The notes below the pieces were generated by a model, which did no database searches, had not been told where the DNA came from, and worked only from the letters and a program-made list of their open reading frames with translations. A DNA stretch of 64,000 nt, taken from assembly GCA_028282325.1 (NCBI GenBank), contig JANQID010000048.1, forward strand, positions 1-64,000, read 5' to 3'. Shown in pieces: positions 61,787 to 63,971 of the stretch. A program made the position numbers and the translations under genes. Each line of letters opens with the position of its first letter. Position 1 is the first letter of the stretch. The DNA is from Chloroflexaceae bacterium. GTDB lineage: Bacteria; Chloroflexota; Chloroflexia; Chloroflexales; Chloroflexaceae.

Positions 61787-63313
61787 ATGGACGATACCAC
61801 AATCATCGTTGGAGCTGGTTTGGGTGGTCTATCGGCTGCAATTCATCTGGCAATTCAGGGTCAGCGAGTTATCGTCTTCGAGAAAAATGAGCGTGTTGGC
61901 GGCAAGCTCAATATCGTCCAGGAAGCAAGATATATATTTGATACCGGTCCATCGCTCTTAACAATGCCGTGGACCATTCGCGAGACGTTCACCGCTGCGG
62001 GGCGCAACGTTGAAGACTATCTTGAACTACTCCCGGTTGAACCGACGTGCCGCTACTTCTGGCCTGACAACACGCAATTCAATGCCTGGCAACAACTCCC
62101 TCTGTTAACCCAAGAGATCGCGCGTCTCGAACCGGCAGACGTTTTGGGGATGTTTCGCTTCCTGCATTACTCTGCTCAGATCTACGATATTGTCGCTGAT
62201 GCCTTCCTGCTACGTCCCTTCGATGGCATGCGCGATCTGATTACCCCAGACCTGGTGAGTAAGGGATGGAAGATAGATGCATTCCGCAGCGTGGATACAG
62301 CAGTGCGAAGTTTCTTCCGCAGCCCCTATCTCCAACAGATTTTCAACCGCTATGCGACCTACAACGGTTCATCACCATACCTCTCGCCTGCAACCTTCAA
62401 TGTCATCGCCTATATCGAATTCACCGAAGGCGGATGGTACATTCGCGGCGGTATGTACGAACTCGGTCGCGCCCTTCTGCGCCTGAGTCAGGAGTTGGGC
62501 GTTGAAGTGCATACCCAGACCGAGGTGCGCTCGCTGATCAATGAACAAGGTATCGCTCGCGGAGTCCGGCTGTCAAATGGCAAGCAAATCGAGGCTGCAC
62601 AGGTCGTCGTAAACGCCGATCCACGTTACACGTATGCAGGCATATCTCGACGCTCTCATCAACTCCATCACGCAGATCAGCCGCTCCTCGCCGGATCGCC
62701 GCGCATCGCCAGACAGATGACACGGTTGGAGCCCTCGTGCGCAGGTTTTATTATACTTCTAGGCATTAATCGTACGTACGAACAACTTGCGCACCACAAC
62801 ATTTTTTTCAGCCAGGACTATCCGCGTGAATTTGCCGCAATTTTTGCAAAAGGCGTGCCGGCGCCCGACCCGACTGTTTATGTGTGCAACACCAGTCTGA
62901 CCGATCCACACCACGCGCCGCCGGGCCACTCAAACATGTTTATCCTGGTCAATGCACCAACACTCAATGCACGGGTCAATTGGGATCGAGAGGTCGGCAA
63001 TTACCGTGATGTCATTCTGCGCAAACTCGAGCGGATGGGGTTGTCCGATCTGCGCCGACACATCGTATACGAACAGATAATCACGCCCGCCGATTTCGAG
63101 GCTCGCTATAACGCAGTGGGCGGCGCTATATATGGCCTCGCCTCGAACAGTCGCTTTGCCGCTTTTCTCCGCCCGCCTCTGCGCGCACGCGATACAAAAC
63201 GCCTCTACTTCGTTGGCGGGGGCACACATCCCGGCGGAGGGATTCCTCTTGCTTTACTTTCCGGTAAAGCTGTTGCTGAACGGATCAAGCAGGACAGCCA
63301 TCGTATCAAGTAG
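61787..63313 (+). CDS. crtI: CrtI-family phytoene desaturase / carotenoid oxidoreductase
   Basis: A 508-residue flavoprotein. The dinucleotide-binding motif is TTIIVGAGLGGLSAAIHLAI then QRVIVFEKNERVGGK. GGWYIRGGMYELGRALLRLS is conserved in CrtI-type desaturases, and the C-terminal FAD motif reads LYFVGGGTHPGGGIPLALLS. It probably introduces double bases into phytoene-derived carotenoids; it may instead be a CrtO/CrtN-like enzyme. The ATG at 61787 is preferred; a longer frame from 61622 overlaps cpaF and lacks a domain. The -10-like CATAAT directly before the ATG is probably coincidental. No other carotenoid gene is near. Confidence 0.85.
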   Translation: MDDTTIIVGAGLGGLSAAIHLAIQGQRVIVFEKNERVGGKLNIVQEARYIFDTGPSLLTMPWTIRETFTAAGRNVEDYLELLPVEPTCRYFWPDNTQFNAWQQLPLLTQEIARLEPADVLGMFRFLHYSAQIYDIVADAFLLRPFDGMRDLITPDLVSKGWKIDAFRSVDTAVRSFFRSPYLQQIFNRYATYNGSSPYLSPATFNVIAYIEFTEGGWYIRGGMYELGRALLRLSQELGVEVHTQTEVRSLINEQGIARGVRLSNGKQIEAAQVVVNADPRYTYAGISRRSHQLHHADQPLLAGSPRIARQMTRLEPSCAGFIILLGINRTYEQLAHHNIFFSQDYPREFAAIFAKGVPAPDPTVYVCNTSLTDPHHAPPGHSNMFILVNAPTLNARVNWDREVGNYRDVILRKLERMGLSDLRRHIVYEQIITPADFEARYNAVGGAIYGLASNSRFAAFLRPPLRARDTKRLYFVGGGTHPGGGIPLALLSGKAVAERIKQDSHRIK

Positions 63314-63442
63314 TCAGTTTGAAACGATCATATCTCTTACGACTGAAACACTGTATTATCAGATCTTATAGCATCAGTACCCTGCACTGTGCATAGATTC
63401 GGTGCAATTCTTTAATATTATCGTCAAGTATCGATAAGCGTC

Positions 63443-63471
63443 TTGATCATCCTCAGCCTGCATGCTATGCT
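63443..63471 (+). promoter_or_regulatory. promoter for the structured RNA candidate
   Basis: TTGATC (63443-63448), a 17-bp spacer ending in TGC, then TATGCT (63466-63471). It combines a -35 and an extended -10, and the predicted transcription start (about 63478) falls just before the closing helix of the RNA. Confidence 0.55.
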
Positions 63472-63477
63472 ATTGCC

Positions 63478-63870
63478 GTAACCTCAAGAGCAGCGCAACG
63501 TGAAAGGACTATTTGACAGTCGAAAGGCAGCCGGAACTCTGCAAGCGGCGTACCCTAATTTAGCATGATTATTTGAGGGACGATCGTAAGTTAGGAAAAA
63601 ATGACAACATAAGGTTGTTGTCAAGGAAACTAACAAGCAAGCGCCAGATTTCTGAAGGAGAAATCGGATGCTCTGCAAGTGGAAGGAAGGTTATTTCGTA
63701 GGAAAGCCGAGATCGCGGACAGATGATGTATAGCTGCGAGACGAGCGAAGCCTGGATGTAAAAGCTGGCGCAATAACGGTGTATTGTATGCAGAGCGACA
63801 GTCTGGGATACTGCGAGACAAGTAAATTGTCAAAAAAGCGAGTAACGGCGCATGCTCTTGAGGAGCCTCT
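63478..63870 (+). ncRNA. large structured RNA candidate, about 390 nt
   Basis: No supported ORF. The ends pair: CCTCAAGAGC (63482-63491) with GCTCTTGAGG (63854-63863), then GCGC (63493-63496) with GCGC (63848-63851). Inside are TGACAACA/TGTTGTCA (63602-63609/63616-63623) nested in GTTAG/CTAAC (63590-63594/63630-63634); GATTTCT/AGAAATC (63647-63653/63659-63665); GCGCCA/TGGCGC (63641-63646/63766-63771); GCTCTGCA/TGCAGAGC (63670-63677/63789-63796), which crosses the previous pair as a pseudoknot; and GACAA/TTGTC (63817-63821/63827-63831). CTCTGCA at 63537-63543 could pair instead with the same TGCAGAG. A-rich internal joints look RNA-like. I do not recognise the class; it lacks the RNase P core, tmRNA and 6S features. 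Confidence 0.65.
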
Positions 63871-63931
63871 ACGACGTTCTTTCCTCCATCGCCCCGGCGA
63901 AATTAAAAAGTAAGGTGTACTCTCTTAAGCC

Positions 63932-63971
63932 GATGGCTGAAGGTGATGTATAGGCATCATCTTCAGCCATC
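63932..63971 (+). terminator. 17-bp hairpin, possible terminator of the RNA candidate
   Basis: GATGGCTGAAGGTGATG (63932-63948) pairs with CATCATCTTCAGCCATC (63955-63971) with one G-T pair and a 6-nt loop, followed by an A/T-rich stretch without a true T-run. Confidence 0.5.

Follow-up and report, generated by a model that had tools for sequence, protein, structure and literature searches.

Positions 63482 to 63863 of the plus strand of the window (the whole 64,000-nucleotide stretch analysed here, from a filamentous phototroph of the Chloroflexaceae) constitute a real, conserved, non-coding structured RNA. In our judgement, this is probably an independent gene for a trans-acting structured RNA of about 385 nt, representing a new RNA family restricted to two families of the Chloroflexales, with a scaffold as its most plausible role. 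The RNA shows the features of a stand-alone structured non-coding RNA gene, namely covarying base pairs, its own conserved promoter, terminators in many of the relatives, and no conserved ORF; these, together with the dyad conserved along with the promoter, the closed fold, and three different genomic settings, lead us to infer that the RNA acts in trans, its expression and its regulation through the dyad being likewise predicted. Two points speak against an independent gene: the window copy has no classical terminator, and the linkage to crtI is also compatible with the RNA serving as part of the crtI transcript. What is new is the RNA family; its broad kind, the large structured non-coding RNA gene, was already known, and no new mechanism is claimed. 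The preliminary description had proposed a large structured RNA with its own promoter at this locus, a proposal that homologues, covariation, and the conserved promoter strongly support.

Fold of the RNA and covariation among homologues

The RNA body, delimited by the two strands of its closing helix (63482–63863, plus strand), showed a minimum free energy of −124.6 kcal/mol versus a mean of −101.9 for shuffled sequences (z = −4.0), and none of the 100 shuffles was equally stable. The minus strand likewise folded well in single-sequence folding (z = −4.7), so this approach left the strand undecided and homologues were needed. In their alignment, G.U cells outnumbered A.C cells by 208 to 98 on the plus strand, compared with 166 to 184 on the minus strand, an excess that favours the plus strand as the RNA strand, in agreement with the promoter and the terminators.

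Covariation was analysed in an alignment of 32 full-length sequences, all from the first family, for which RNAalifold gave a consensus of 102 pairs, using as null model sequences simulated without structure on the maximum-likelihood tree. Thirteen of the 102 consensus pairs covaried at E < 0.05. When all column pairs were tested, a setting of low power with 32 sequences from one family, three pairs were recovered at E up to 0.1, all of them Watson–Crick. Compensatory changes were found in the closing helix and in several inner helices, and two-sided changes affected 13 of the 24 core pairs. The closed fold suggested earlier for this segment is therefore borne out, both by its stability against shuffled sequences and by an exact, covarying closing helix.

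This closing helix pairs 63482–63490 with 63855–63863, and its full supported extent over the homologues is 63481–63496/63849–63864. It is common to 20 extracted loci and includes covarying pairs and compensatory variants such as CCTCAAGAG/CTCTTGAGG, CCTCAAGGG/CCCTTGAGG, and CCTCGAGAG/CTCTCGAGG. Inside it, a stem at 63517–63521/63825–63829 belongs to the architecture supported over the homologues and is followed by the conserved core (63528–63692), in which a stem (63528–63546/63675–63692) encloses three stem-loops. The core, defined by R1 and R3 matches and by two-sided changes, is common to the main copies of the RNA and to the second subtype described below. Its first hairpin (63547–63585) is also part of the architecture supported over the homologues. 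The second (63586–63638) consists of a GTTAG/CTAAC stem, a purine-rich internal loop that reads GGGGAAA/GGGAGA in most relatives, and a variable tip, and it is supported by pair counts and by changes from UA to CG and from AU to CG. The third (AGCGCC..GGATGCT, 63640–63672) is the local helix with the best covariation, its 13 pairs being 100% paired in the 32 sequences and six of them carrying two-sided changes. Finally, the 3′ domain contains one hairpin at 63706–63746, 92% paired and with one covarying pair, and another at 63764–63796, with two-sided changes in eight of its ten pairs, all of these elements lying on the plus strand.

The size of the RNA, its complex fold, and the conserved unpaired purine-rich loop would be compatible with a catalytic RNA, either a self-cleaving or a trans-acting ribozyme. 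However, no Rfam ribozyme or intron model matched at E up to 10, and we consider a catalytic role improbable.

Two long-range helices had also been proposed to cross and form a pseudoknot. Both of them, GCGCCA/TGGCGC (63641–63646/63766–63771) and GCTCTGCA/TGCAGAGC (63670–63677/63789–63796), are present in the window, but over the 32 homologues only 76% and 82% of their cells pair, respectively, with one pair of the former broken in 29 of the 32 and no two-sided compensatory change in the latter. In addition, both compete for strands with the covarying local hairpins 63640–63672 and 63764–63796, the second of which occupies the 3′ strands of both long-range helices. Poorly paired, without covariation support, and sharing their strands with covarying hairpins, the two helices were not accepted as a pseudoknot; such pairing, for instance of 63670–63677 with 63789–63796, may at most form as an alternative or transient state.

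Promoter, upstream dyad, and 3′ end

The promoter attributed to the RNA (63443–63471, plus strand) proved to be conserved in relatives as a sigma-70-type extended −10 promoter. In the window, it consists of a −35 element TTGATC (63443–63448), a spacer of 17, and an extended −10 element TGC-TATGCT, whose hexamer TATGCT (63466–63471) is accompanied by the extended TG, with a predicted start near 63478. The form TTGA-N-TGCTATnAT was found directly before the closing helix in all 35 main copies examined.

Upstream of this promoter, a dyad ATCGTCAAGTATCGAT (ATCG-N8-CGAT, 63420–63435, plus strand), whose centre lies about 50 bp upstream of the predicted start, was near-invariant in the 35 main copies, where it reads ATCGTTAA-N4-CGAT or a near variant. 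The pattern combining dyad and promoter occurred exactly once each in the window genome, G029, and G042, always at the RNA gene, and it had 0 occurrences in 27 genomes lacking the RNA. The dyad is likely a regulator site. A wider regulon was rejected, as the sole other match to the dyad in four genomes corresponded to a repeat-rich Chloroflexus stretch without promoter context.

Regarding the 3′ end, terminators formed by a hairpin and a T-run, at 40–250 nt downstream of the closing helix, were detected by a simple script in 22 of the 35 main copies. No classical terminator was found at the window copy, which presents instead a 17-bp palindrome (63932–63971), identified by its own reverse-complement match, between the RNA gene and the convergent fabD. 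The hairpin described earlier after the 3′ end is thus real, with 16 Watson–Crick pairs and one G.U pair, but lacks a U-tract; it is a possible end signal.

In several genera, the tail between the closing helix and the terminator includes two to five spaced copies of a 28–29 nt unit, GGGAACTGTACGCACGTCGGTAACCTATC and variants, located just downstream of the closing helix (L073:6347–6404, L080:1462–1595, L082:5595–5724, and L096). This unit, absent from the window, possibly represents a repeated protein-binding or pairing site.

Distribution, subtypes, and genomic setting

A blastn-type search of 60 relatives recovered about 19 genomes of the same family with the locus, the hits falling mainly in a 60-nt core. 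The covariance model of the core (R1) extended this to 45 of 158 Chloroflexia genomes, 35 of them among the 41 genomes of its own family and the other ten in the Roseiflexus family. In an even draw of 400 Chloroflexota genomes, the RNA was present in 29, all from those same two families and none outside them. When 32 negative genomes were searched with model R2 under more permissive settings, scores were only 18–20 bits, a level equally reached by an unrelated contig, and the candidate distant homologues were rejected for that reason. Judged by this distribution, the inheritance of the RNA is vertical.

The hosts include, from the first family, Oscillochloris and Candidatus Chloroploca and, from the second, Roseiflexus. 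Also among them are genomes G029, G061, and G042, which we take to be Chloroflexus aurantiacus, Chloroflexus aggregans, and Roseiflexus sp. RS-1, respectively. The RNA, of about 385 nt in the window, ranges from 340 to 420 nt in most relatives. In loci L104 and L112, the closing strands are separated by 693 and 503 nt, respectively, with a variable part of the RNA enlarged in both genomes.

A single copy is present in the window genome. In seven genomes of the Roseiflexus family, a second, diverged copy was found beside a purL-like gene, and six of these copies were extracted (L106–L111). Their promoter region is strongly conserved (TGCACA, TTAAGGGCTTGTAAA, GTATACTAT) and unlike that of the main copies. 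A model built from the second copies alone matched the window RNA at 63538–63683 with an E of 6e-5. At E < 0.01 it also detected eleven further loci of the main type, so the two subtypes share homology across the multi-branch core.

A reaction-centre gene scored above the cut-off in 42 of the 45 RNA-positive genomes. However, the RNA is missing from many phototrophic relatives, while the complete genome G045, devoid of reaction-centre genes, keeps it; a link to phototrophy was therefore rejected, and the association is attributed to shared ancestry. In a genome without reaction-centre genes, a SAM riboswitch (RF00162, 82.7 bits) was located at L105:2943–3078, about 3 kb from the RNA.

The window copy lies between a gene of the crtI family of carotenoid desaturases (61787–63313, plus strand; TIGR02734 crtI_fam, E = 1.1e-126), supported also by tblastn of relatives and with its stop at about 63313, and fabD, located on the minus strand in convergent orientation just beyond the window end (L033:9012–9965). 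The earlier remark that no supported gene exists between crtI and the end of the window is confirmed, in that the stretch from crtI to fabD has no conserved ORF. Among the homologues, the longest ORFs vary in strand, frame, and place, giving no hint of a conserved coding sequence.

By tblastn, 33 of the 35 main loci, across both families, have crtI directly upstream of the RNA in the same orientation, with gaps of about 50–340 nt, although the proteins of the relatives are only 58–70% identical to the window crtI. Downstream genes vary between fabD and a short-chain dehydrogenase (SDR), and the recurrent neighbours identified were crtI, a cpaF/TadA-type ATPase, fabD, fabH, and the SDR. This persistent linkage supports the main rival to an independent gene, in which the RNA would be a 3′ UTR element through which the crtI mRNA is stabilised or regulated, or would give rise to a 3′-UTR-derived RNA feeding back on carotenoid synthesis. 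Against such a cis or feedback role, which we regard as unlikely, the conserved promoter sits between crtI and the RNA, and the second subtype adjoins purL with a promoter of its own. Furthermore, the two loci of genus g12 (L096 and L101), without crtI in the upstream sequence examined, keep both promoter and RNA, which argues that the RNA gene is independent of crtI.

The preliminary description had also offered a mobile-element or guide-type RNA among the possible roles, and a large ornate RNA could in principle be an IscB/IsrB or TnpB omega RNA, a HEARO RNA, or the remnant of a group I or II intron. These options are disfavoured and very improbable, given that no Rfam family matches, the window genome has a single copy, the recurrent neighbours identified include no nuclease or reverse-transcriptase gene, and the distribution is vertical. 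In the same line, no phage or plasmid match was obtained, and the one viral contig retrieved was not a homologue. A large trans-acting RNA, also among the roles offered, remains the best of them.

Proposed role and comparison with known RNAs

As a trans-acting RNA, the transcript would be produced from its own predicted sigma-70-type extended −10 promoter, probably controlled through the putative regulator-binding dyad that lies about 50 bp upstream. It would fold into a closed multi-domain shape around the conserved multi-branch core, would end at an intrinsic terminator in many relatives, and would act as a stable scaffold, in an RNP or an RNA assembly, and not through translation or only on its own transcript. 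The scaffold role was judged the most likely one because the fold is large and no adjacent protein gene recurs except crtI; taken alone, this mechanism has in our estimate slightly less than an even chance of being correct. More tentatively, the RNA could be the first representative of a new Chloroflexales class of large functional RNAs with two old subtypes, forming an RNP or an RNA-only complex, served by a regulator devoted to this single promoter, and possibly linked to the physiology of carotenoids or of the membrane through its lasting association with crtI, a combination that we find conceivable but doubtful.

Few bacterial RNAs combine such a size with an elaborate fold kept by evolution, and among those whose role is understood, several serve as central machines or regulators. 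The one presented here is absent from Rfam and occurs in the cultivated genera Oscillochloris, Candidatus Chloroploca, Chloroflexus, and Roseiflexus; these hosts, along with the defined promoter, the operator-like dyad, the domain map, and the existence of another subtype, allow direct tests of its expression, function, and partners.

The covariance-model scan against Rfam 15 revealed no family over the RNA, whether for the window copy or for those of the relatives, at the gathering score and likewise with E allowed up to 10, and no earlier description of it was found in the literature searched. The Chloroflexi-1 RNA (RF01698), listed for Chloroflexus aggregans (PMC2864571), resembles it in being a candidate structured RNA from the same bacterial order, but its covariance model had no match in the window or at the loci of the genus Chloroflexus, g9 (L084, L089, L090, L095, and L098).

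A divergent housekeeping RNA would account for the closed ends and the promoter, and RNase P RNA and tmRNA share with the RNA a closed form of 350–450 nt produced from one gene, just as 6S RNA shares the condition of a stand-alone structured RNA with its own promoter. However, all three were located elsewhere in the window genome, namely RNase P RNA (RF00010) at G000:C8:21503–21948, tmRNA (RF00023) at G000:C23:1412–1776, and 6S RNA (RF00013) at G000:C56:61876–62045. No model of theirs matched the RNA locus, and 6S RNA differs in size and fold as well; these identities were consequently refuted, and a housekeeping RNA is barely credible here. With 75.5 bits, the RNase P RNA fell short of the 100 bits that Rfam sets as its gathering cut-off, and it is thus a divergent type A RNA.

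Finally, OLE, ROOL, and GOLLD are large ornate bacterial RNAs (PMC12286853). They differ from the Chloroflexales RNA, which is shorter, in their host lineage and in the lack of any sequence or covariance-model match. Both sides coincide in being large structured non-coding RNAs with a conserved, covarying fold and without a known catalytic role, and by analogy a scaffold or assembly role might be shared with them, the formation of oligomers by the Chloroflexales RNA being hypothetical.
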